Of a stretch of 64,000 nucleotides of DNA, positions 13,300 through 64,000 are shown piece by piece. The number at the start of each line of letters is the position of its first letter. Position 1 is the first letter of the stretch. A model generated the notes under the pieces. The model did no database searches. It saw nothing but the letters and a program-made list of their open reading frames with translations, and was not told the DNA's origin. This DNA is from a virus, in IMG/VR virus record IMGVR_UViG_3300021197_001433, positions 1-64,000 of that record; one strand, 5' to 3'. Made by a program: the position numbers and the translations under genes.

Positions 13300-14381
13300 C
13301 TAAGATTCTCGAGTTGTAGTTGTTCATGATCTGCACTACTCCAATGATAGTCATATGTAGCACTACTAGATCCACATTCTATTTTATAGATATCTAAATA
13401 ATCGCCCATCTGTTTCCAGATGTCCTGGGCATCTGTTGTCCCAAAACTATTTAGCAGGTCAACTGAACCCAATTTTAAATATCCTAGACTAAGTTGCGGG
13501 TTATATGGATTAAAACCATTTTCTGTTAACCAACTACTGAATCCTTGAATCTCATCTCTATGCCAGGGTGCGTTTTCAAATGTAACATCATTGCCCCATT
13601 CAACGTCAAACTCACCGCTGTAGTATTTTAAATGTGTTATGGCTTCACAAACTGCGTCAGTAAGCACTGGAGCATGTTCGTCTCTGTACACCTCCATAAG
13701 TGTTTTGCCTATCTGACACCAGTGCATGTACACCCCACCCAGTTCTCTGTTGTAACCGTTTTCTAAAAACCCAATGCGATGCTCATCATCTAATAGATGG
13801 CGCGGTGTCCTAGTAAATTGTGTAATTTGACTAGGGCGTGTCCAGTATGGATTCTGCACAACTTTACGCTGGCTCATGCACAGACTTTCTATTTCGTGAC
13901 ACAACAAATTAAGTTGTCTAATAGCATAGCGTATTTCCGCTGAGCAGTTTACTGTGTACTTGCTTGGATTTTCTACTGTGCCTTCCAGTACTTCAAAATG
14001 ATTGTGTAGTATATTCATTACATCATGTTTAAGTACGAGACCTTTATTAACGGGATCGTCATCCATTCTGCCAATGGGATACTCTGGACCAAAACGTACT
14101 ACATCAGGCGCAAACCATTCTTCAATATAATAATCCAATTCGCTTTGATTAATTGTAAAAATATGTCTGTTTAATTCCTTGCACAGGTATTGTAAATCTC
14201 TTTGTGTATGTGGAAAACCATGGAAGCAATAATTCTTTTCAAGGTGCAAACTTTTTTGCAGCACATCCTGCTCCAGTGCCACTATCCAGTCCTGTGCCAT
14301 TTTATTATCACAGGGTACAATGTTGTAATCAATTGTTTCCTGTGTTTTGTAATTGCGTAAAACTATTTTAACAGATTTCAT
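13296..14381 (-). CDS. hypothetical protein of the radical-SAM operon
   Basis: A 361-residue soluble protein with no motif I recognise. It is rich in Trp, Tyr and His, has scattered cysteines without a CxxC or CxxxCxxC pattern, and no signal or membrane segment. Its start overlaps the end of the first radical-SAM gene by 14 bases and its end overlaps the kinase gene by 4, so it is tightly embedded. It could be a substrate-binding partner, a scaffold or the modified target of the radical-SAM enzymes. None of these is shown by sequence. Confidence 0.7.
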   Translation of the reverse strand: MKSVKIVLRNYKTQETIDYNIVPCDNKMAQDWIVALEQDVLQKSLHLEKNYCFHGFPHTQRDLQYLCKELNRHIFTINQSELDYYIEEWFAPDVVRFGPEYPIGRMDDDPVNKGLVLKHDVMNILHNHFEVLEGTVENPSKYTVNCSAEIRYAIRQLNLLCHEIESLCMSQRKVVQNPYWTRPSQITQFTRTPRHLLDDEHRIGFLENGYNRELGGVYMHWCQIGKTLMEVYRDEHAPVLTDAVCEAITHLKYYSGEFDVEWGNDVTFENAPWHRDEIQGFSSWLTENGFNPYNPQLSLGYLKLGSVDLLNSFGTTDAQDIWKQMGDYLDIYKIECGSSSATYDYHWSSADHEQLQLENLR

Positions 14382-15648
14382 CCCAAAACTCTCTTGCTTG
14401 TATGGTCTTTAGTGTGTCTCTAAACTGCATACCACCGCGCAGATTATCCAACGCTTGCATACGCCACTTGCCTTTTATTCTTGCTTTTGCATATTCATCC
14501 GGAAACTGTTCTTCAAATGTAGGACGAGTAAGTAGATCTTTTAGCATTTGTCTTATTGTAGGATTATCTATGTAACTAGTTAGTAACAACTCATTTACAT
14601 AATCATGAAGTATTTTTTTAGGAAGAAACAGCGGGCTCATTGCAATATCAGGCGTAAATGCAAATACTACTTTAGCAAGTATATCCACTTTGTAATGATT
14701 TGCAAGACGACATATGCCTACTAAATCAAACAAACCTGGTAATGTAAGTGTAAAGTCAATACGCATTTTGCGTCTATCACCTGCTGCGTGGTGTACCCCA
14801 CTAGCAAAATTATCTAGCCATTTTCTATAATCTAATCCTGTGCGTATATATTCTCCAACTTCCGTTGTGCCATCTAGGCTTGCACATATTTGCCAATCGC
14901 GAATGTTGCGTAGTATATCTGTGTACAAATTTTGACCTTTATAGTCTACACGACTTAGGTTTGTATTATAACGTGCATACAAGCCAGGGCCATCTCCTAG
15001 TTCAATGATACGTTGCATGTACTGCCAATGCTGTTCATACATAAGTGGCTCTCCGCCTACCCAGTATACTTCTTCGATACGATGTTCTTCAACTGCTTGT
15101 GCAAACTCTGCTTCTACAGTATCTTTTTGGAAAGTTTCAATAGCCTTTTTCACAGGCTTTTCCATCCAGGGTTCTATTCTATTTTGTTTACGGGCTTCTG
15201 TCTCCCAAGCACTACTAAGCATTGGTCCACACATACGACATTTATAGTTACACAAGTTGCTAAAACGATAATCCCAACTAACAGGTTTCATAGTTGTATA
15301 ACCATCCCAGTCTGTGTTTACTACAACATCCTCCCATTTGTGTGCGAACAACTGATTAAAATAATCCCTATAAACATCATGGTTAAGTAGCCGTTTATCA
15401 CATACTTCACATTCAGGCGGTACTTCATTGTTTAACATCTGCATACGGATACGGCGTATATTTTCTCCGTTCCAATATTCATCAAGTGTGCTTGGTTTGT
15501 ATTCTCCCGTGCCTTCTGCTGTATCAATGTACTGTTTAAAGTTTTGTGCAGGCTCACGACTAGCACAGCACAAGCGTCTCTCAGTTTGTGGACTAAGATA
15601 TGTGTGTGTCCAGGGTGCCATACATAAATTATCTGGCTTAGAGTTCAT
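14368..15648 (-). CDS. radical-SAM protein 1 (twitch-type N-terminus)
   Basis: A 426-residue radical-SAM protein. The SAM-cluster motif CxxxCxxC is C133-C137-C140 (NLCNYKCRMCG), followed by the SAM-binding GGEP. The N-terminus has extra cysteines typical of phage twitch-type radical-SAM proteins: LCMAPWTH (C9), a CC pair at 27-28 and CEVC at 80-83, which may hold an auxiliary cluster. It is downstream of four related genes and overlaps radical-SAM 2 by 11 bases. The reaction and substrate are unknown; related SPASM/twitch enzymes modify peptides, sugars or cofactors. Confidence 0.88.
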   Translation of the reverse strand: MNSKPDNLCMAPWTHTYLSPQTERRLCCASREPAQNFKQYIDTAEGTGEYKPSTLDEYWNGENIRRIRMQMLNNEVPPECEVCDKRLLNHDVYRDYFNQLFAHKWEDVVVNTDWDGYTTMKPVSWDYRFSNLCNYKCRMCGPMLSSAWETEARKQNRIEPWMEKPVKKAIETFQKDTVEAEFAQAVEEHRIEEVYWVGGEPLMYEQHWQYMQRIIELGDGPGLYARYNTNLSRVDYKGQNLYTDILRNIRDWQICASLDGTTEVGEYIRTGLDYRKWLDNFASGVHHAAGDRRKMRIDFTLTLPGLFDLVGICRLANHYKVDILAKVVFAFTPDIAMSPLFLPKKILHDYVNELLLTSYIDNPTIRQMLKDLLTRPTFEEQFPDEYAKARIKGKWRMQALDNLRGGMQFRDTLKTIQAREFWDEIC

Positions 15649-16807
15649 ATTGTATTGCTCGTGCTATTTTACTATGGCTTACAGCAAAGTTTTGATTACG
15701 GTATAGATCTGTTTGCCGTAGTTTATTTGCTAGATCAGTATTATCCATTTGTCTACTGTTTACAATAATATTTTTTAAACTTAGTATATCTGTTTTATAT
15801 TTTGCATGTTTGATCTGTTGCTTTTGCAAATACAGCATCACTTGACCAACTGCCATGCGCGGCATACGACTTAGACTAAACTCCCAGGGGTCGTGCATAA
15901 GGTTAAAATGTATGCTATCAAAGTTCATTGTGTCTGCCCAGGTTAATACATCATCCAAATAGTAGATGTTTTGTACATTCCAAGTACAACATAACTGTGT
16001 AGTAATAGGATATCCCTTGTCTCTGAGTGCATGCACCTTGCTTATATTTGTATTTGCAGTATGCCACTTAGCGCCATAGCGTTCATATTCAAAACGTTCT
16101 TCGGTGTTGTCTACGCTAAATGCAATCTGCACATGTTTGAAATGCTGCCATATAGTTGGATCTTTTGGAAACTGTGTAGTGTTAGTATTATAATGTATGT
16201 CAATATCCTGTGCAAGTCCTCGATCAACTGCACGTTGTAATAGGTCAAAATGCTCCTTGATCATCCATGGTTCACCGCCTGTAAATTCAAAATACTTTAC
16301 TTGCGGTAGCATCCTGTCTAACTGCGTCCAAAAATGTTCACTTTCTCTGGGCCATTGTCCTGCTTTTAACCAAGTTCGTGCTATATGATTATCAGGATCA
16401 TTACTATAATCCAGTTCTTCTTTTGCCCATTTACTGCTACTCCAAGACCCACATATTCTACATTTCAAATTACAAATATTACCAAGTTTTAAATCTAAAA
16501 ATACAAGTTCTTTGCCACTAGTATCCGTGTAATCAACATCAATGTGTTTAAACTTTTCTAACATGTATTGGCGTTTTGATTTTTTACCAGCATCTTCTTC
16601 GCGCCAACAGTTGCGACATCCATCAGGCTTTTCATCATTGCTAAATTGTGTGCGCAGTTCCTGCATTGTTTTACTTGCAAACGCATCCTCTAGTGTATGT
16701 GTTTTAAGATCAACATTGGGTATTTCATCTGTGTACAAGCAACAAGGACGAGTTGTTCCCATTGGCGTTGTTTCTACACTTATCCACGGAAGTATACATT
16801 TAGGCAT
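15638..16807 (-). CDS. radical-SAM protein 2 (twitch-type N-terminus)
   Basis: A 389-residue protein with CxxxCxxC at C112-C116-C119 (NICNLKCRICG) and a GGEPW motif. N-terminal extra cysteines occur as CILPW (C4), CC at 22-23 and CRNCW at 64-67, in the same order as in its four neighbours. It is the shortest of the five. The ATG at 16807 overlaps the preceding stop by 8 bases. Same general chemistry expected: reductive cleavage of SAM to a 5'-deoxyadenosyl radical using a [4Fe-4S] cluster. Confidence 0.88.
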   Translation of the reverse strand: MPKCILPWISVETTPMGTTRPCCLYTDEIPNVDLKTHTLEDAFASKTMQELRTQFSNDEKPDGCRNCWREEDAGKKSKRQYMLEKFKHIDVDYTDTSGKELVFLDLKLGNICNLKCRICGSWSSSKWAKEELDYSNDPDNHIARTWLKAGQWPRESEHFWTQLDRMLPQVKYFEFTGGEPWMIKEHFDLLQRAVDRGLAQDIDIHYNTNTTQFPKDPTIWQHFKHVQIAFSVDNTEERFEYERYGAKWHTANTNISKVHALRDKGYPITTQLCCTWNVQNIYYLDDVLTWADTMNFDSIHFNLMHDPWEFSLSRMPRMAVGQVMLYLQKQQIKHAKYKTDILSLKNIIVNSRQMDNTDLANKLRQTDLYRNQNFAVSHSKIARAIQYEL

Positions 16808-18104
16808 AGACTTGCAAACCCGCTAGTTCTGGAAATACTTCATAAAAGTTTTCTGTTCTTACTGCATCTAATTGTGCTGTTACTTGATTAAACTTTTTAA
16901 GGTGCTGTGTGTTGGTTTGACTGTTCATAAAACTAATTGTACTACGGAACCCATTTGTTGCACGTTGCAAATGATCCTGAGGTTGTAACCAAGCAATGTG
17001 TTCCTCAAGTTTTTCTGTTGCTTGTGCTTTTAGTTCCTGGGGTAAACAATCTGCACGATACCAATCCGGGGATTGCAGTATGTTTACGTTTAAGTCCTGT
17101 GCGTTTAGTAATCCACTTTCTACCCACGCTCTATGAAAATCAGGCACATGTAGTACGTTCATTAAACTTACAGTGGGACTAATATAAAAGTCCACGTCAG
17201 GACACACTTCTAGCATGCGTTGTCTGTTGTGTACAATTTTATTCCAGTCACATCCACTGCGCATTAGTTCTGCACGATCTCCACTGGCATCCAAACTTGC
17301 ACCTATGCTTACACTTTCAAACATACTCCAATAGTCAAGTACATCCAAGTCCTTGTACAGCGTTTCATTAAAGTTTGTATTGTAAATTAATTTAACATCA
17401 AAACGTTCTCGTTTAACTAATTCTTTGAGTATGTTATAGTGTTCCTGCATAATAAGAGGTTCGCCGCCGGCAAAATATATTTGCTCAATGTGATCAATAT
17501 GCGGAATCATCTGTTCCCATATATCATTCTTATTACGTCCTGCCCATTCAATACGCTTATGATTAGGTGCCTGTCCATGCATTTTTACATGATCGTCATA
17601 CCACAAACTGCTAAACATAGGACCGCAACTGCGACACTTTAGGTTGCACTGATTACTAAAACGTATATCCCAGTATACTAATTCAAAGTCTGGATTAACA
17701 CCCTGATCTACTTTGTCAATGTGATGACCAAAATGTTTGTTGTGGCTGTTTCGCATACTAAAGAAGCCCTGCGCTTCCTGTTCGTAGCAGCGTGTACATT
17801 CCTTGCAAGGTTTATCAGCAAGCATGCTCTCACGCATTTGGCAATACTTTGACCCGTTCCAAATTTCCTCTAATGAGTTATCGCGCATGTTGCCGATAGG
17901 GTGTTCCATTTCAGCCAAGCAACAAGGGTATGCTTCGCCTGTTGGAAATCCGTGTATATGTGTCCAGGGTATCATACAAAAGTTCTTGCTTTCCATCAAA
18001 CGATATTGTTGATCTTTGCGTAAACTTTCTAATTCCACAAACACTGGACGTCTACTATTGTAGTCATATGTTTCGTAATACTTTTTTGTTTCAGAGGCTT
18101 TCAT
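16800..18104 (-). CDS. radical-SAM protein 3 (twitch-type N-terminus)
   Basis: The ATG at 18104 (GAGGA upstream) is preferred to an in-frame TTG at 18116. The 434-residue product has CxxxCxxC at C153-C157-C160 (NQCNLKCRSCG), AGGEP, and an N-terminal FCMIPWTH, CC pair and PCKECTRC cluster. It carries about 35 additional residues before the FC motif, absent from the other copies. The central region resembles radical-SAM 1 most closely (WDIRFSN versus WDYRFSN before the cluster). It overlaps radical-SAM 4 by 14 bases. Confidence 0.88.
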   Translation of the reverse strand: MKASETKKYYETYDYNSRRPVFVELESLRKDQQYRLMESKNFCMIPWTHIHGFPTGEAYPCCLAEMEHPIGNMRDNSLEEIWNGSKYCQMRESMLADKPCKECTRCYEQEAQGFFSMRNSHNKHFGHHIDKVDQGVNPDFELVYWDIRFSNQCNLKCRSCGPMFSSLWYDDHVKMHGQAPNHKRIEWAGRNKNDIWEQMIPHIDHIEQIYFAGGEPLIMQEHYNILKELVKRERFDVKLIYNTNFNETLYKDLDVLDYWSMFESVSIGASLDASGDRAELMRSGCDWNKIVHNRQRMLEVCPDVDFYISPTVSLMNVLHVPDFHRAWVESGLLNAQDLNVNILQSPDWYRADCLPQELKAQATEKLEEHIAWLQPQDHLQRATNGFRSTISFMNSQTNTQHLKKFNQVTAQLDAVRTENFYEVFPELAGLQVYA

Positions 18105-19410
18105 ACCAATCCTCAAGTTCTGGAAACGCTAGTGCAAATGTTTTGTTACGACGTATGTCATACTGTGTGTAAAACTTCTTAAAGTCATTGTGCAGTTTAG
18201 GCATTTCAAATGCTTCACTGTGCGGAGTTTCCACAACTTGCAAATATTCAATAAGCCTAGTCATGTGTCCTCGTTCCCAATCATGCATCTCGCTTTGATC
18301 TATTGCTTGTAATCTATCAACACAGGTCTTGCGAATTTCGTAGGGCAATACCAAAGGAGATTGAAAACTAGGAAAGCGTAGTATATTGTAACTCATAAAT
18401 GCAAAGTCCTTACCAAAAACAGTTCTAGCATTAAGTATTTTTTCAATTAGATCTGGCAGTGTTGGCAAACACAGTGCATTAATAGTAAACATGCAGTGCG
18501 TGTGTACATCATTTAGAGTAAGTTTTGCCATGTTTTTCCACCATTGCTCAAACTCTAGTCCGTCTCGGATGTACTCTGCACTTAGTCCAGTTGCTTCACA
18601 ACTACTGTAAATATCCAAACGCGGCAAATGTGTTTTTGCCTCTATAAGTCTGTCAACAAACTCCTGCTTGCCGCCTAGGTTACTGTTAACTGCAATGCCA
18701 GTTTGACTTTTATCTGCATTTAGTTTAAACCAATCAAACAGTCTCCACAGTTCCGCAGTCATTGTTGGTTCACCACCTGTAATGCGTAGTTCTCGCAGTG
18801 TGCGATGTAAGTCAGTATCCCACCATTTAAAGAACGCTTCTACATATGGATTAGTTTCGCCATACTTAAACTTTTGGCTGTGATCATGTGCATGGATAAA
18901 GTGTCCTCTACCGTCACTTTGTAGATCAGTGTAACTACCTTTTTGTTTTATATCTTTTACCCATGTTGTGCTAAATGCGGGATTGCAATAACTGCAAGCA
19001 AAGTTACATGTTCTATCAAAGGCAATCTCAAGGGTAATAAGATCAACGTCATCAGCGCAGGGTGTATTAAAAGCATTTTTTAGTTCCTCACTAGTATATA
19101 TCTTGGATTTGTAAACACGATCACTAATAAAACCTTTACCCATGTCCTCAAGTTTCCAACAGTATTCACAACCCTTGGGACGTACACCATCCTGCATTTG
19201 TTTACGTTGGAATTTTTTCTCAGGTGTATTGTGTAGTAGTTTTGGATTTTTCAAAACTTCCTCAGGATCAACTAGGTGCGCAGGCGGATGATGACAACTA
19301 GTAGTCATACCGCTGCCAAGCCAAATAGTAGCGTTGTACCACTTGGCTGCGCAGAAACTTGCGCTCTTAGTGTCTAAATGATTTGCTTTAAATATTAGAT
19401 CTGTTTGCAT
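18091..19410 (-). CDS. radical-SAM protein 4 (twitch-type N-terminus)
   Basis: The ATG at 19410 is chosen; a GTG at 19419 is an alternative. The 439-residue protein has CxxxCxxC at C135-C139-C142 (RTCNFACSYCNP) and TGGEPT. Its N-terminal cysteine block differs from copies 1-3: FCAAKW (C20), one SCHHPPAH in place of the CC pair, and CEYCW at 81-84. That form is shared only with radical-SAM 5, so copies 4 and 5 make a subfamily in which histidine follows the second cysteine. Confidence 0.88.
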   Translation of the reverse strand: MQTDLIFKANHLDTKSASFCAAKWYNATIWLGSGMTTSCHHPPAHLVDPEEVLKNPKLLHNTPEKKFQRKQMQDGVRPKGCEYCWKLEDMGKGFISDRVYKSKIYTSEELKNAFNTPCADDVDLITLEIAFDRTCNFACSYCNPAFSTTWVKDIKQKGSYTDLQSDGRGHFIHAHDHSQKFKYGETNPYVEAFFKWWDTDLHRTLRELRITGGEPTMTAELWRLFDWFKLNADKSQTGIAVNSNLGGKQEFVDRLIEAKTHLPRLDIYSSCEATGLSAEYIRDGLEFEQWWKNMAKLTLNDVHTHCMFTINALCLPTLPDLIEKILNARTVFGKDFAFMSYNILRFPSFQSPLVLPYEIRKTCVDRLQAIDQSEMHDWERGHMTRLIEYLQVVETPHSEAFEMPKLHNDFKKFYTQYDIRRNKTFALAFPELEDWYESL

Positions 19411-20755
19411 AATACTCACACTGTTGCCAGAAAGTTGTCATCTCTGGAAATGTTTCTAAAAAATTTGTTCCTCTGCGACGGTCATGTTCACTAAAGAACT
19501 TGTAAAAGTCTGCACGTTTGCGTTCTACATCAGTTGTGCCTTGTAACATCCAATCCAAGTCACGCTTCATCTTTAGTACTTCGTAGTCCTTAAAGCCATG
19601 CATTTCGTGCATGTTTTCTTCCATGTAGCGTATACATTCCTGCATTACTATTTGATATTCCATAGGCAGTATTTGCATACTTTGCCATTCTGGTGTGTAC
19701 AATAGTGGAGTATCAAACCATATACGCTGATAAGTGTTTGTATATGTTTTACGCAAGTATACTATGTATTCTAACAGTTTTTTAAGGGAAAGTATACTTA
19801 AATTATTCATTGTAATAATGAATGTTAGACTGCTACGATATGGAACATCGCGCACAAATTCTTCACATCTATTTATTGCTAGATCAAAGTCTAGTCCGTG
19901 ACGTATGTATTCTGCCTGTTTACCCCAGGTATCCAAACTTACAAACTGCATAAAGTGTTCTATCTGTTCGCCTTCACATAGTCTCTGTACATAGCCTTTG
20001 TACTTGTCCCACACCTTAGTGTCAACACTAAAGTTGCTGGTTGTGTTTAAATGCAAATCAGGTTTGGGATTATCTAGTACATAGTCAAACACCCTATAGG
20101 TGTTAGGATCCATAGTAGGCTCACCGCCTGTCATTCTGAAGTGTTTAAGATCCTTGTATAGCGTGGGCCACCATCTCCAGAAGGCTTCTCTGTAGGGATT
20201 GTCCTCCCTAAGGGGGATGGCCCTACGTGAACCCACAAAGTGTGCAGGGTCATTGTGCGGTACAGTGGTGGGCCATGCGCCGTATTGTTTTGACTCTGCT
20301 GTCCAGGTGCTACTAAACTGAGGGCTGCAATAACTGCAACTAAGATTACAAACATTATTAAAATTTACCTCCACATAACTTGGGTTAACATCCGCACTGG
20401 GATTATTCACTATTTTATTAAAACTCGCCATTGCCCAGGGCTCGCCACTGCGATAGTGACGATCACTCATATTGCCCTGTGCTTCTATATTCCAGCAATA
20501 GTTACAATCACTACACTTTGTACCTGCCATCATTTCTAATCTGCTTTGTTTTTTGTGTGCAGTGTTGTGTAACGCACTTGGATTATCTCTAAGTGGAGCG
20601 ATATCTATTTTATGCAATGGCGGATGATAGCAACTATTTGTATGTCCCGTAGTAAGGTGCAGACTTACTTGTTGCCACTTTGCTAAACAAAAACTATCAC
20701 TTACTGTTGCTAGTTTAGTCTTTGCAGTTAGTGCATCATTATAATAATCACTCAT
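19388..20755 (-). CDS. radical-SAM protein 5 (twitch-type N-terminus)
   Basis: A 455-residue protein, first of the five to be transcribed. CxxxCxxC is C136-C140-C143 (NVCNLSCSYCSP), followed by TGGEPT. The N-terminus has SFCLAKW (C23), SCYHPPLH and a CSDCNYCW cluster at 81-88. It is closest to radical-SAM 4 (shared FSxTWxxxxKQ after the cluster and REDNPYREAF/GETNPYVEAF). The start overlaps the end of the GT-like gene upstream by 4 bases and its end overlaps radical-SAM 4 by 23. Confidence 0.88.
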   Translation of the reverse strand: MSDYYNDALTAKTKLATVSDSFCLAKWQQVSLHLTTGHTNSCYHPPLHKIDIAPLRDNPSALHNTAHKKQSRLEMMAGTKCSDCNYCWNIEAQGNMSDRHYRSGEPWAMASFNKIVNNPSADVNPSYVEVNFNNVCNLSCSYCSPQFSSTWTAESKQYGAWPTTVPHNDPAHFVGSRRAIPLREDNPYREAFWRWWPTLYKDLKHFRMTGGEPTMDPNTYRVFDYVLDNPKPDLHLNTTSNFSVDTKVWDKYKGYVQRLCEGEQIEHFMQFVSLDTWGKQAEYIRHGLDFDLAINRCEEFVRDVPYRSSLTFIITMNNLSILSLKKLLEYIVYLRKTYTNTYQRIWFDTPLLYTPEWQSMQILPMEYQIVMQECIRYMEENMHEMHGFKDYEVLKMKRDLDWMLQGTTDVERKRADFYKFFSEHDRRRGTNFLETFPEMTTFWQQCEYYANRSNI

Positions 20756-55306: not shown

Positions 55307-55606
55307 TTAGATTCCTAATGCTGTTTCGACTGTATCCTTTTTGGGAATGTAAAACTTCTTTCCTGCACGAAAATCCCAGACAGGATCTTCAAATGCATTT
55401 GGATTACGAGCCATAAACACCCACCATAGATTACTATTGCCATACAAGTCAAAAGCAAGTAGGTCAGGTCTGTTTTGATGCACTAGTGTAAGTGTATGTA
55501 GTACATCGTCTCTGAAAGGAGGAATACGTCGTGGACTAAGCACATCCAAGTAGTAACTGTATTGATTGGTATTAGCATAGGGACTATCACTATTGTATTC
55601 AGCCAT
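55307..55606 (-). CDS. 53: baseplate wedge protein gp53
   Basis: A 99-residue protein with the gp53 core NRPDLLAFDLYGNSNLWWVF followed by N-FEDPVWDF-AGKKFYIP, a LysM-like arrangement found in the wedge protein of T4-like phages. T4 gp53 is about twice as long; short forms are usual in marine T4-likes. GGAGG stands before the start. The stop/start overlaps with the gp48/54-like gene by one base. Confidence 0.85.
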   Translation of the reverse strand: MAEYNSDSPYANTNQYSYYLDVLSPRRIPPFRDDVLHTLTLVHQNRPDLLAFDLYGNSNLWWVFMARNPNAFEDPVWDFRAGKKFYIPKKDTVETALGI

Positions 55607-56448
55607 TAAATAAATCCTCCACCTTTGCCTGGATTACCAATTAGTCCGCCTTTGCTAAACTTATCCAAACTAAAGTTTCCAATTTGATTTTTACTGTAGA
55701 TAGGCAATAGACTAATTGTCATATTCATATAACTTGGTATCATAGTTTTAGTTGCAGTATCAGGACTGCTTGCAAGAGGAACTTCAATATAGTCTCTGTC
55801 TGCTGGCATAATTTCTGTAAAGTTTGTAATTACAACAGGTATACTGTTGTAGTTAAACGGACCATATCCACTTAGTCTTAGAACTGGTGGCGGTGTGCCT
55901 CGTAACTGATCTGCTCCGTAGAACATTTTATAGGCACTGCGGAAAAAATGTAGTACAGCGAAAACATAACGTGCTTCATCTGCGTTAGTTGCTGTAAAAT
56001 ATCCATCAATATTAATTGTATCCACGCTACTAGCATTGTAACTGTGTTGAATATAGTTACTGTGTGTTGGATGCGCTCCTGCGTATTGCGCACTGTGACT
56101 AACACTTACTGTGGGTGTATAGGGAAAAAGCACGCCATCTGTGTCAAGCAGTGGCTCCAGCAATTTATTTTTTGCGTCTTTATACAAGTAATTTCCACTA
56201 CTAGGACTCATACTAAGTCTAACACGGATATCACCGTCTCTGAACACAGTAGCAGCAACATCACTAAATCCAGGAATGTTCTCACCTGCAAAATTTAATC
56301 CTGCTTGGATAAGTCTATTACCACTGCTATCTAGTAGATTGCGACCAATTTTACTAAGTGGATCATTACCTGGAAGAGCCCTTCCACTAGCATCACTTAC
56401 AAATTGCTGTGCTTTTCGCTTAAAGATACTACCTAAATTAAACGCCAT
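55606..56448 (-). CDS. tail tube cap/initiator, gp48 or gp54-like
   Basis: A 280-residue protein that is the first gene of the leftward late run. The N-terminal MAFNLGSIFKRKAQQFV and the central strands PTVSVSHSAQYAGAHPTHSNY and IDGYFTATNADEARYVFAVLHFFRSAYKMFYG match the baseplate tail-tube family (gp48/gp54), which starts tube polymerisation on the hub. I cannot separate gp48 from gp54 by eye. TATAAATA lies 34 bases upstream. Confidence 0.75.
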   Translation of the reverse strand: MAFNLGSIFKRKAQQFVSDASGRALPGNDPLSKIGRNLLDSSGNRLIQAGLNFAGENIPGFSDVAATVFRDGDIRVRLSMSPSSGNYLYKDAKNKLLEPLLDTDGVLFPYTPTVSVSHSAQYAGAHPTHSNYIQHSYNASSVDTINIDGYFTATNADEARYVFAVLHFFRSAYKMFYGADQLRGTPPPVLRLSGYGPFNYNSIPVVITNFTEIMPADRDYIEVPLASSPDTATKTMIPSYMNMTISLLPIYSKNQIGNFSLDKFSKGGLIGNPGKGGGFI

Positions 56449-56471: not shown

Positions 56472-56500
56472 TTGATAAGTATATTTATAGGCTGTATAAT
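56472..56500 (+). promoter_or_regulatory. sigma70-type promoter of gp55
   Basis: TTGATA (56472-56477), 17 bp and TATAAT (56495-56500); predicted start about 56507, leaving a 21-base leader with AAGGA before the ATG at 56528. The late promoter of the divergent gene lies inside the spacer. Confidence 0.7.
56482..56489 (-). promoter_or_regulatory. T4-like late promoter (TATAAATA)
   Basis: A perfect T4 late -10 octamer on the minus strand, 34 bases upstream of the gp48/54-like ATG at 56448, lying within the spacer of the oppositely directed gp55 promoter. Confidence 0.7.
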
Positions 56501-56527: not shown

Positions 56528-57340
56528 ATGATCAAAAGGAAAAAATATCTCAACAACCGAGATTTGTTGAAAGAAATCCACCTAAGTAAAAATACATATA
56601 GTAGTTTTGTTAATGAAAATGATGATGTTTATGACATTATCTTACCCAACGTAGAAAAAATTAACATTCGCACTATTGCACAAGCAAAACGTAATCAAGC
56701 AGATAGATTACAAAAGAAAGCATATGAAGCAGCTCGTGCAGAAGGACAAAAAGTAAAGCAAGCAGACTTTGCTGTTGATTGGAAAAAAATTGACAAGAAG
56801 GATGTTGTTTTTCGCATTATGACGCATGACCATATTCCACTGCATCCAGGTCGCAAAAAGTCACCAAAGACTGTGGCAGACCATCATGTACAGTGTAACT
56901 TCCCTCCTTTTCAACACTTTAGACTGGACGACAGTGATGTTGCAGTTTGTGTTGGTAAAAGTCACTGGGACGGCGGACTAGAAAACGGAAACTTCAGTAA
57001 AACACATGGCAAGACTACTAACAAACTTGCCCGTATGTATATGAAATTATGCGAACGTTATGGCACTAGAAGTAACTGGCGTGGATACACATACAATGAT
57101 GAGATGCGTAGTCAAGCATTGTTGCAACTTGCACAGATTGGCTTACAGTTTGATGAAAGCAAAAGTGAGAATCCATTTGCATACTACACTGCAGCAATTA
57201 CAAACAGTTTTACAAGAGTGCTAAACTTGGAAAAGAAAAATCAGAGCATCCGTGATGATATTCTCGAAAGTGCTGGACTAAATCCTAGTTACACAAGACA
57301 AACTGAAAACGAACTAGCAAAGAGTTCTGATCCTATCTAA
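56528..57340 (+). CDS. 55: late-transcription sigma factor gp55
   Basis: A 270-residue gp55-type sigma. The diagnostic part is near the C-terminus: NDEMRSQALLQLAQIGLQFD and FAYYTAAITNSFTRVLNLEK, equivalent to sigma region 2, which recognises the late -10 octamer with host core polymerase. T4 gp55 has 185 residues; here the extra length is an N-terminal half with a basic helix (about 55-85) and a segment resembling the phage-specific gp55 N-terminus. It is expected to read the GATAAATA/TATAAATA elements in this window. Its start has a Shine-Dalgarno (AAGGA). Confidence 0.85.
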   Translation: MIKRKKYLNNRDLLKEIHLSKNTYSSFVNENDDVYDIILPNVEKINIRTIAQAKRNQADRLQKKAYEAARAEGQKVKQADFAVDWKKIDKKDVVFRIMTHDHIPLHPGRKKSPKTVADHHVQCNFPPFQHFRLDDSDVAVCVGKSHWDGGLENGNFSKTHGKTTNKLARMYMKLCERYGTRSNWRGYTYNDEMRSQALLQLAQIGLQFDESKSENPFAYYTAAITNSFTRVLNLEKKNQSIRDDILESAGLNPSYTRQTENELAKSSDPI

Positions 57341-61576: not shown

Positions 61577-61954
61577 CATAGTGTCATTATCAAATTAATT
61601 TAGCGTTTACGGTCTGCGCACTAAACCGTCATTGACACAAGTAAAACCAACTTTAGGCACAAAAGATAGCGGCTCTGAGAAAAAGCAACCGCAACTGGAA
61701 GCATATTGCTGTTATGATATGTGAAAGGTTCCGAGACTATTCAGTGAAGGCTGGAGTAGGGGGTTAGCGGGTTTCCGCCTCCGTACAGAAATGTAATCTT
61801 CTTATAACAGTGAGTGATGGACTAGTTAGATATTCATTCAATACTTCATCCGGAGACGGGTGAAGTATGAGCTCCGGTTCTGTTAGATAATCGCTACTTC
61901 GTAGTAAGAAAATAGTTCGAGCGTTAGCGAGAACTAGATGAACGTAGTTCATCT
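61577..61954. other. 378-base gap with strong hairpins and no convincing gene
   Basis: It lies between the convergent GIY-YIG and gp26-extension genes and is less AT-rich than its surroundings. It contains ACGGT/ACCGT near 61608-61630, an 8-bp stem 61841-61848/61861-61868 whose loop holds CCGGAG that can pair with CTCCGG at 61872-61877, and an 8-bp, 3-base-loop hairpin at 61936-61954. Conserved group I intron P7 pairing and a tRNA T-loop are missing. It could be a structured RNA or a two-way terminator. Confidence 0.5.
61936..61954 (-). terminator. hairpin directly after the gp26 extension stop
   Basis: AGATGAAC/GTTCATCT with loop GTA (TAC on the minus strand) starts at the base following the TAA at 61955-61957. 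There is no T-run, so it is either a weak terminator or a 3'-end stabiliser. Confidence 0.45.
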
Positions 61955-62185
61955 TTATAAGATGATTTGATTAGCCTCTTTGCTAAGTTTCATGTTATCT
62001 TCAATCACTTCGTTGAAGTATTTGTATTCGCTCAGAGGAAGTTCTAGAAGTTCCGCATAGGAAACACCACCGCGCATGTACCAACATAATTGTGCTATAG
62101 TTTTTCTGATACGATTTACTTCTGTATCAAATCCTTCTAGTAGCCCCTCAATCTCAGGATTAGATAATGCTAAGAGGCGAATACG
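61955..62185 (-). CDS. -1 frameshift extension of gp26 (tail-chaperone T-like)
   Basis: The frame -1 to gp26 is open from just upstream of the gp26 slippery sequence to TAA at 61955 and encodes 76 residues after the slip. It includes NPEIEGLLEGFDTEVNRIRK and CWYMRGGVSYAELLELPLSE. The MRGG-(I/V)S-Y-x-E-L pattern is typical of small hub-assembly/tail-chaperone proteins of T4-like phages. There is no ATG, GTG or TTG between the upstream stop in that frame and the MRGG methionine, so expression as a gp26 fusion is the simplest reading. It may correspond in function to T4 gp51. Confidence 0.7.
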   Translation of the reverse strand, partial: RIRLLALSNPEIEGLLEGFDTEVNRIRKTIAQLCWYMRGGVSYAELLELPLSEYKYFNEVIEDNMKLSKEANQIIL

Positions 62186-63069
62186 AAAAAATTTGATTGG
62201 TCAAATGTAAATGGTGCAGTGTAACTGTGTCCACATTCATCGCAGGTATGATTTACATCTTTGCTAGGAATAGCCTTGTTAATATCATCTATCTTTGCTT
62301 TAATAACCTCAAACAACTGGCGTTCACTGTTTGTAACAAACTCCTGGATAAAATCTGTATCTATTACTGTATCACCTTCGGGTGTTACTATCCTTAGTAT
62401 AGTACCACTTACGTTCCTTACAGTATAATTTGTCATAGTCTGAAATATTTTGTAGAATCTTTGCTGCTTATCTTCTTCGCTAAGTTCTGTATCATTTATC
62501 ATAGTCACCATGCGTTGTTGTTCAAACTGTTCCAAATTTTGTGTGTTTACACTTTCATAATCGTTTGGTTTAAGAAAAATTTGCATGCCCTTGTATTCAA
62601 GTGGCTCCTGATATGCACTTAAATTTACAGGAAGGTCTAGGAAGTTTCGTAAATCCAGTTCATATTCATCCTGATTACTGCATTGTGGACATGTACTAGT
62701 GTACTCCATCTTCTCACCATAACTTGCAATTCTGATAGCAATTAATATTGTATCTAAATCACATACTGGAATACACCAAGCGTTCTTAATGTTTGGCATA
62801 CAACTGTGAATCATATCCACTACTGCTTGCCCATTCATAAGTGCATCCGGTGTGTTAATAGCAATTTCATCCTTGGTACTCATAGGATATACGGGCAATT
62901 CGTTGTTTACAGTCATTTCTAGACTGTTCATAGCCCAATATTCGCCATTGCTGGGTAATTTAATATAGATTGCAGGTTGCCGCATGTATTTTTGTAGCGG
63001 ATTTGTGCGGTTTTGCATCTGTGCAAGTTGCTCAGGGTTCATCGAAAAGTTCTCAGGTACATCGACCAT
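62170..63069 (-). CDS. 26: baseplate hub protein gp26
   Basis: A 299-residue protein. The ATG at 63069 with GGAG 6 bases upstream is chosen over a longer open frame. LQKYMRQPAIYIKLPSNGEYW begins the conserved region; two cysteine pairs, C127-x2-C130 (CPQC) and C276-x2-C279 (CDECG), can bind zinc; the end FTFDQSNFF is typical of gp26 in marine T4-like phages. T4 gp26 (208 residues) is needed for hub assembly. Its place next to a tape-measure-like gene and the -1 extension suggest a chaperone role like lambda gpG/gpGT. Confidence 0.82.
   Translation of the reverse strand: MVDVPENFSMNPEQLAQMQNRTNPLQKYMRQPAIYIKLPSNGEYWAMNSLEMTVNNELPVYPMSTKDEIAINTPDALMNGQAVVDMIHSCMPNIKNAWCIPVCDLDTILIAIRIASYGEKMEYTSTCPQCSNQDEYELDLRNFLDLPVNLSAYQEPLEYKGMQIFLKPNDYESVNTQNLEQFEQQRMVTMINDTELSEEDKQQRFYKIFQTMTNYTVRNVSGTILRIVTPEGDTVIDTDFIQEFVTNSERQLFEVIKAKIDDINKAIPSKDVNHTCDECGHSYTAPFTFDQSNFFVFAS
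62188..62194 (-). promoter_or_regulatory. candidate -1 ribosomal frameshift site
   Basis: On the minus strand, in the gp26 frame, A_AAT_TTT (62194-62188) is an X_XXY_YYZ heptamer and is immediately followed by overlapping T_TTT_TTC. Slippage at gp26 codons 293-294 of 299 would join gp26 to the 76-residue extension. Confidence 0.65.
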
Positions 63070-63110: not shown

Positions 63111-63118
63111 TATTTATA
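63111..63118 (-). promoter_or_regulatory. T4-like late promoter (TATAAATA) for gp26
   Basis: Perfect late octamer on the minus strand, 42 bases upstream of the gp26 ATG. Confidence 0.65.
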
Positions 63119-63144
63119 TACGCATATAATTGGAGTTTAAAACT

Positions 63145-64000
63145 TTGCCAACAATTGATGTACCGGGCATCGGAGCCGTACAAGCAGACAATTTTGCTAG
63201 TGAACAAACACTGAATCGTCTTATTGATGCTGTAAACAATCAAACTACAGGTGCGGGAGGTATACAGAGTATCTTTGCAACTGTTGCAGGTGATAGTCGC
63301 AGAGCTGCAGCAGACCTAAAACGTTTAAGTAGTTCAACTACAACACAGAGTAAAGTAACAGATGAGACAAGTTCCAGTGTTCAGAACCTAGGACGTAGCA
63401 GTGCTGGTGTTAGTGCAGCATTTAGCAGTGTTGCAAATAGTTTAAACAATGTGAATATAGAAGCACCTGCTAGTTCACTTGGTCAAATGTTTGATAAAGC
63501 GGCTGGATTAGTAAAGGATGGTGGCGTAGCCTTAGGACTAGCAGTAACCGCTGGTGCTGGACCAGTTGCAGGAGCACTGACTGTAGCGGCTACTCAAATA
63601 GGCGGGGTGTTAGTATCAGCCCTTGGTGTTGCACTAGGTGATATTGATAAGATGGGTACTGAATACCGAAAAGCAGCGAACAATGGTGCGCTGTTTGGAC
63701 AAAGCATGCTTAACTTTAGAAACTTTGCACAAACTAGTGGACTTACTATGCAACAGTTTGGCAATGTGCTTGAAAAAAACAGAGAACAGGTTAGCGTGTT
63801 TGGTATGGCAACTACAGAAGGTGCAGCACAGTTCTCAAATGCAAATGCAAGAGTAATTAGAGACTATGGTGATGCTTTTCAACGCATGGGTTTTACATTT
63901 GAAGAAATAGGCAGCAACACAGCAGAATACCTAGCAGCAATTGCAGAAGGTACACCGGGTGTATACAATAATGCAGTTACTTTAGATGAGGCTACCAAAG
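63145..64000 (+). CDS. putative tail tape-measure-like protein (3' partial)
   Basis: A frame open from TTG at 63145 to the window end (at least 285 codons). There is an in-frame stop just upstream and TGGAG about 10 bases before the TTG, so the start is well bounded. The product has an Ala/Ser/Gln-rich helical N-terminus and a hydrophobic Gly/Ala/Val segment of about 40 residues (about 120-165) of the kind seen in tape-measure proteins that enter the host membrane. Adjacent gp26 and its extension would be its assembly chaperones. The family assignment is by character and position. Confidence 0.7.
   Translation, partial: MPTIDVPGIGAVQADNFASEQTLNRLIDAVNNQTTGAGGIQSIFATVAGDSRRAAADLKRLSSSTTTQSKVTDETSSSVQNLGRSSAGVSAAFSSVANSLNNVNIEAPASSLGQMFDKAAGLVKDGGVALGLAVTAGAGPVAGALTVAATQIGGVLVSALGVALGDIDKMGTEYRKAANNGALFGQSMLNFRNFAQTSGLTMQQFGNVLEKNREQVSVFGMATTEGAAQFSNANARVIRDYGDAFQRMGFTFEEIGSNTAEYLAAIAEGTPGVYNNAVTLDEATK

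Follow-up and report, generated by a model that had tools for sequence, protein, structure and literature searches.

In phage lambda the tape measure protein is coated by gpG and gpGT, in a ratio of about 30:1, and these also recruit the tube subunits; G-T frameshifting has been described in a 2016 review as widely conserved except in T4 (PMC5009743). In T4 itself, gp26 and gp51 are given as hub assembly chaperones in a 2010 review (PMC3004832). Frameshifting in the tail assembly chaperones (TACs) of T4-like phages was proposed by Vladimirov, Gautam and Davidson in 2022 (Virology 566:9-15), as cited in PMC10885494 and PMC12846349; with the same citation, PMC10885494 states that some T4-like phages do without frameshifting and have a short gene plus a longer, fused one, and PMC12846349 places poly-T -1 signals in the genes for the short form (TAC-N) of T4-like phages.

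Here we describe a gp26-like gene in a 64,000-nucleotide stretch of DNA from a marine phage, positions 1 to 64,000 of the IMG/VR record IMGVR_UViG_3300021197_001433 (hereinafter the window), which, judging from its sequence and that of its relatives, very probably encodes both forms of the phage tail assembly chaperone by means of a programmed -1 frameshift. As the 2022 work had already identified T4-like tail assembly chaperones of this sort, the finding belongs to a known kind; what we add is a conserved RNA stem downstream of the slip site. That work reportedly holds that frameshifting is seemingly conserved in several T4-like groups and that T4 uses genes 26 and 51.

The slip site and the frame beyond it

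All coordinates are positions in the window, and the gp26-like gene is read on its minus strand. The elements of the locus are as follows:

62170..63069, minus strand: gp26-like gene, short form (TAC-N, 299 aa), assigned by PF12322, phrog_150 and predicted fold
62185..62191, minus strand: slippery heptamer T_TTT_TTC (U_UUU_UUC), from direct reading and conservation in relatives
61955..62185, minus strand: -1 frame extension of 76 aa plus stop, putative C-terminal domain of the long form (TAC-C), from the open -1 frame, conserved motifs and predicted helical fold
62170..62178, minus strand: 5' arm of the putative stimulatory stem, GCCTCTTAG, 6 nt after the heptamer and holding the gp26 stop codon
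62143..62151, minus strand: 3' arm of the stem, TTGAGGGGC, beyond an 18-nt loop, in a register common to the close relatives L002, L003 and L005-L007 and others

The gene extends from an ATG at 63069 to a stop codon at 62172-62170, and its 3' end, read downward from 62193, is AAT TTT TTC GTA TTC GCC TCT TAG, coding for N-F-F-V-F-A-S-stop. The -1 frame opens three codons upstream of the first T of the heptamer and runs to a stop at 61957-61955; from the CGT at 62185 it encodes exactly 76 residues (RIRLLALSNPEIEG...CWYMRGGVSYAELLELP...IIL). An earlier note made from the letters of this DNA alone had described such an open frame with a 76-residue tail bearing the motif MRGGVSY, and direct reading recovers both the length and the motif. 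Its further claim that the tail has no start codon of its own holds for the window phage, in which the first ATG, GTG or TTG of the extension is the ATG of MRGGVSY (62077), codon 38 counted from the first F; it does not extend to many of the relatives, which, unlike the window phage, display an in-frame TTG (a Leu codon) at extension codon 6.

In-frame T_TTT_TTC is encountered four times among the 18,068 codons of 32 larger genes of this AT-rich phage, the gp26 copy being the only one of the four sited at the 3' end of a gene. As the motif is not rare in such a genome, it is its conservation, rather than the motif itself, that constitutes evidence for a slip site. The relatives were accordingly fetched via gp26 protein patterns and not via the slip site: a first set of 70 non-redundant sequences comprises IMG/VR relatives recovered with six gp26 peptides away from the junction, along with named isolates, and a second scan, one of whose two patterns (FTFDQ[SA]N) falls immediately 5' of the slip site, brought the union to 87. 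The heptamer is TTTTTTC in 68/70 sequences of the first set and TTTTTTT in the other 2/70 (RAS14 and XacN1); for the union the counts are 85/87 and 2/87. The alignment across relatives that the earlier note had proposed as a check returned a conserved heptamer. The wobble base preceding the heptamer is T in 70/70 (product of probabilities under each gene's own codon usage ~10^-17.5), and the first Phe codon is TTT, never TTC, in 70/70 (~10^-8.2), both being values that kinship among the sequences makes less extreme in truth. Elsewhere in the 70 gp26 genes there are 12 Phe-Phe pairs, and T_TTT_TTC is used in 0 of them. A conserved Arg (CGN) of the -1 frame accounts in part for the invariant C and the G following it. 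By these comparisons, the synonymous bases of the slip site are under selection, far beyond the expectation from codon usage.

The earlier note had also placed an overlapping heptamer, A_AAT_TTT, at this site. Only T_TTT_TTC survives the comparison: AAT precedes TTT_TTC in 27/70 relatives, the codon in that position otherwise being GAT, ACT, AGT, CAT, CGT, GCT, TAT or TCT, and A_AAT_TTT is ruled out. We also observed that RAS14 (L087) and XacN1 (L091), the two phages with T_TTT_TTT, have 10-11 sense codons ahead of the gp26 stop, as against 1-6 elsewhere, and divergent extensions (FFYRTL and FFYSAI).

Counted from the first F, 57/69 relatives keep the -1 frame open for 78 codons, with the other two frames containing ~7 stops each over that stretch. 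The extension is conserved across relatives in the form FFRxRLL...W-MRG...LPFF, with the conservation starting exactly at the slip site, and is predicted to be an all-helical domain (mean pLDDT 85) forming a short helical bundle. Searched alone, it yielded no significant match in Pfam or PHROGs and no match at E<=0.001 in BFVD. The slip-site arrangement is common to the phages PA5oct, CBB, GAP32, 121Q, RaK2, Atu_ph07, SCTP-2, Phosso, a Vibrio phage and the cyanophage S-RIM8, whose records omit the extension or annotate a separate small open reading frame (ORF); in the S-RIM8 record the piece after the first ATG is named baseplate hub assembly catalyst, which is the name of gp51. Our reading would correct the annotation of several such isolates.

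Relation to T4 gp26 and gp51

The short form hits PF12322 (T4_baseplate) at E=3.3e-15 and 56.8 bits, where the cut-off is 24.5, and phrog_150 (baseplate hub) at E=5.7e-17, and its predicted fold matches T4-like baseplate hub proteins with E down to 4e-26; a PDB fold search with it gave no match at E<=0.001. T4 gp26 resembles the short form in ending with KEFFELL followed by a stop; the other PF12322 protein of T4, gp51, has an additional C-terminal stretch. A profile of 68 fusions aligned with seven gp51 proteins by hhalign over nearly the full length (columns 54-387 on 5-255, P=4e-7, probability 93%), placing the FFRIRLL junction opposite the VFKLL/LFKLL region of the latter. The homology of the predicted fused product to T4 gp51 is supported by this alignment. 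It favors the earlier note's extension of the lambda G/GT idea to the gp26/gp51 pair; the idea itself is not new, having been put forward by Vladimirov, Gautam and Davidson (2022).

PF12322 is present twice in T4, and we found one copy in the incomplete 69-kb record of the window phage. Among nine jumbo phage genomes, eight have one copy (8/9), and SCTP-2 has none by the Pfam model, though tblastn finds its gp26. The T4 strategy of two separate full genes for the short and long forms was not seen in the record of the window phage. Given this difference in copy number, T4 encodes both forms as two genes and these phages apparently from one; on the evidence of sequence, the window phage apparently makes the short and the long form from its single gene. 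This supports a view in which genes 26 and 51 of T4, traditionally catalogued as coding for baseplate hub proteins, are two solutions to providing a short and a long tail chaperone.

Two relatives depart from the common arrangement. In Synechococcus phage S-SCSM1 (L097, 3163-3371), TCT_TTT_TTC is present, the -1 frame closes after FFRLES and the +1 frame carries the remainder of the extension domain, with several possible starts; the break may be due to an indel, to another kind of shift or to an error in sequencing. In Pseudomonas phage Cygsa01 (L099, 2800-2982), the slip site is lost (AGC ATT TTC ACC TAA), and a separate gp51-like small TAC-C gene begins from an ATG overlapping the gp26 stop (TAATG). 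These cases suggest that further solutions exist besides frameshifting and the two-gene scheme of T4. In-frame stops combined with a separate start, the pattern named earlier as one that would speak against a frameshift, are not the rule, the -1 frame being open in essentially all relatives.

The downstream stem and the alternatives to frameshifting

Stimulatory structures in -1 programmed ribosomal frameshifting (PRF) are usually located 5-9 nt downstream of the slip site (PMC7618472). Across the relatives, a 70-nt segment starting 6 nt past the heptamer is more stable than its dinucleotide shuffles (mean z -3.3, 63% below -2), which is not true of upstream segments. Against synonymous shuffles, which preserve the extension protein and codon usage, the first 69 nt have a mean z of -1.89 (SE 0.15), compared with -0.33 and -0.45 for later stretches. 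This stability is traced to a stem, the 5' arm of which lies at ~+3 to +15 after the heptamer, within the Arg-Leu-Leu codons, and starts at +3 to +6 in most relatives; its duplex energy against synonymous shuffles gives a mean z of -2.5, with 70% at p<=0.05 as against 3-7% for control arms. A helix score >=8 is attained by 79% of 84 relatives and 6.6% of shuffles, and one >=10 by 57% and 1.5%, respectively. The 3' arm with which it pairs occupies several places: most relatives carry it at ~+62 to +76 and a few at ~+76 to +90, with the window clade at ~+30 to +41 and still others at ~+43 or +54 to +58. In an alignment of 57 relatives not chosen for pairing, the main-clade stem shows 52 compensatory cells versus 24.7 (sd 3.5) in shuffles, a count reached by 0/500 of them; sliding it by 1-3 columns leaves no more than 26. 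The combination of an X_XXY_YYZ heptamer and a stem ~5-9 nt downstream, characteristic of a bipartite -1 PRF signal, is seen in the family and is borderline for the window's own stem. Examples of the paired arms (5'/3') from three relatives are:

L131: GTATCCTGA/TCAGGATAC
L152: GGCTTCTATC/GGTAGAAGCC
L143: GGATCTTAAC/GTTAAGATCC

A joint RNAalifold consensus for the 57 relatives returned no structure, since the register of the 3' arm varies among them; the stem of the window clade, applied to all 57 sequences, was likewise not general. Comparison of 61900-62400 with Rfam gave no match. We found no earlier report of a conserved stem in the literature, which is weak evidence as subscription papers lay mostly outside the coverage of the search; the conserved downstream stem may be new.

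Several observations weigh against parts of this interpretation. The window's own stem, with nine pairs of which three are G-U, is by itself borderline (p 0.10 and 0.03 in two runs); its region has z -0.07 in a 69-nt fold and z -1.15 in an 80-nt fold relative to shuffles, and the changes seen in the stem among the closest relatives are one-sided, U-A/U-G only. The stem is absent or weak in L058, L125, L135, L087 and L089. Beyond the stem, the extension alone aligned with only part of gp51 in hhalign (34 columns, probability 62%), and the neighboring tape measure is a positional guess.

The borderline score of the window's stem against synonymous shuffles and the want of a good stem in some relatives would fit a reading in which the pairing is a by-product of codon constraint, or has some other action, such as on mRNA stability or in limiting re-initiation, with the heptamer alone bringing about the shift. 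We consider this unlikely: the shuffles keep the protein and codon usage and yet fall to 6.6% where the relatives stand at 79%, the compensatory changes outnumber those in every one of the 500 shuffles and at every slide, and the 5' arm is always just after the heptamer even as the 3' arm has shifted over the range +28 to +81. The stem is also not terminator-like, as the T run precedes it. A more far-reaching proposal, which we favor by a slight degree, is that a widespread clade of T4-like phages, known from contigs of marine and freshwater origin and from several jumbo phages, tunes the chaperone ratio by U_UUU_UUC and a stimulatory stem, the 3' arm of which was repeatedly relocated with its complementarity to the fixed 5' arm kept, and that T4 later swapped in genes 26 and 51. 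If the stem works in this manner, nature has supplied in these phages a series of -1 frameshift signals in which the slip site stays put and the 3' arm moves, useful for testing how the position of the stem bears on the efficiency of frameshifting and on tail assembly.

What the sequences establish is the heptamer, an open -1 frame, selection acting on the slip site, the homology to gp51 of the fusion and the family stem, and the earlier note's central proposal, a lambda-like programmed -1 frameshift yielding a short product and a fusion, draws support from the invariance of the slip site, the open frame and the gp51 homology. Two other routes to the extension have to be set against a ribosomal shift. 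Were RNA polymerase to add a U in the T6 run, some mRNAs would encode the fusion in frame without any shift by the ribosome; such transcriptional slippage is a recognized alternative source of fusion products at runs of this type (PMC5009743), and the T6 run is conserved in all relatives. Nevertheless, the run keeps strictly to the X_XXY_YYZ register with respect to gp26, a constraint that slippage by the polymerase would not impose, and is followed at ribosomal spacing by a conserved stem with compensatory changes. Six T also make a short run for transcriptional slippage, and we hold this explanation to be very improbable. The extension might instead be a separate small gene, translationally coupled to gp26 and started internally, for instance at the ATG of MRGGVSY (62077) or at a TTG; short ORFs are annotated here in several isolates, and Cygsa01, devoid of the slip site, has an ATG overlapping its gp26 stop and appears to use this route. 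In the window, however, the first start lies 38 codons in, past the conserved FFRxRLL and W-Y parts; conservation begins exactly at the slip site, whose invariant wobble bases a separate gene does not require. A separate gene is hence an exceedingly improbable account of the window's extension.

Proposed mechanism, genomic context and known systems

In E. coli, UUY codons are among the more shift-prone of the ZZN codons, and motifs ending in UUN and homogeneous pyrimidine codons also rank as comparatively shift-prone (PMC4066793). We infer a ribosomal shift, a stimulating effect of the stem, a ratio of short to long form and a chaperone role, along the following lines. The majority of ribosomes would terminate at the gp26 stop and release the 299-aa short form, while a minority would be paused by the RNA stem 6 nt downstream of the heptamer. 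Both tRNA-Phe on U_UUU_UUC would then slip one base back in tandem, allowing 76 further codons to be read. The result would be a 371-aa long form, whose C-terminal helical domain is probably the counterpart of the end of T4 gp51. If lambda gpG/gpGT is a guide, the short chaperones, in large number, and the few long ones would together cover the tape measure protein and bring in subunits of the tail tube.

The record is a virus contig of 69,383 bases that carries T4-like tail, portal, sigma-55-like, gp46 and gp47 genes. The features neighboring or related to the gp26-like gene are:

63130..64000, plus strand (63130-65025 in the record; start codon uncertain): start of a divergent 631-aa ORF, a tape-measure candidate by position
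63111..63118, minus strand: T4 late-promoter-like TATAAATA, ~42 nt upstream of the gp26 ATG, putative by function
56482-56489, minus strand: second TATAAATA site, ~34 nt upstream of the tail gene at 55606-56448

A divergent ORF adjoins gp26 in most relatives, being weakly conserved and usually 600-990 aa long; the 631-aa version showed no convincing family match and is followed by the portal gene gp20. The two TATAAATA sites are the only ones in the window, compared to 6.8 expected from shuffles. Their positions upstream of gp26 and a tail gene, together with a sigma-55-like gene at 56528-57340, suggest T4-type late promoters that are avoided elsewhere.

A gap of ~370 bases (61580-61950), bounded by the gp46-side genes and by the end of the gp26 extension, lacks a long ORF and contains palindromic-looking, RNA-like sequence. 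Farther away, on the minus strand at 14368-20755, five consecutive large ORFs have similar CxxxCxxC-like motifs and appear radical-SAM-like by eye from their translations; they adjoin sugar-metabolism-like genes at 3.5-8 kb, an unusual feature in a phage contig.

Among known systems, the locus is closest in protein family to the T4-like TAC-N/TAC-NC pair (gp26 and gp51), sharing PF12322 and the short and long chaperone forms, and differs from T4 in having one PF12322 gene in its 69-kb record where T4 has two. With lambda gpG/gpGT it shares the presumed role of tail assembly chaperone and the G/GT-type PRF layout of a conserved heptamer near the end of the short ORF, an open -1 frame and, in the window, no independent start for the extension. 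The lambda heptamer is G_GGA_AAG (PMC7618472), whereas that found here is T_TTT_TTC; the conserved downstream stem is a further difference, as is the setting of the gene, which adjoins a divergent ORF instead of lying immediately upstream of the tape measure gene. The TAC locus of the Vandenendeviridae and Andersonviridae, typified by Pseudomonas phage Adele (PMC12846349), is similar in that its -1 frame is open in all genomes and an invariant poly-T (GTTTTT) occurs near the TAC-N end; it belongs to other phage families and has another motif, and the section of that paper devoted to it describes no downstream RNA structure. Lastly, the family resembles the canonical bipartite -1 PRF signals of HIV-1 gag-pol, dnaX and the IS3-family elements in combining X_XXY_YYZ with a stem at about the usual spacing, and is set apart from them by its long and variable loop (~18 to 70 nt) and by a 3' arm whose place differs between clades, in a stem whose function is putative.
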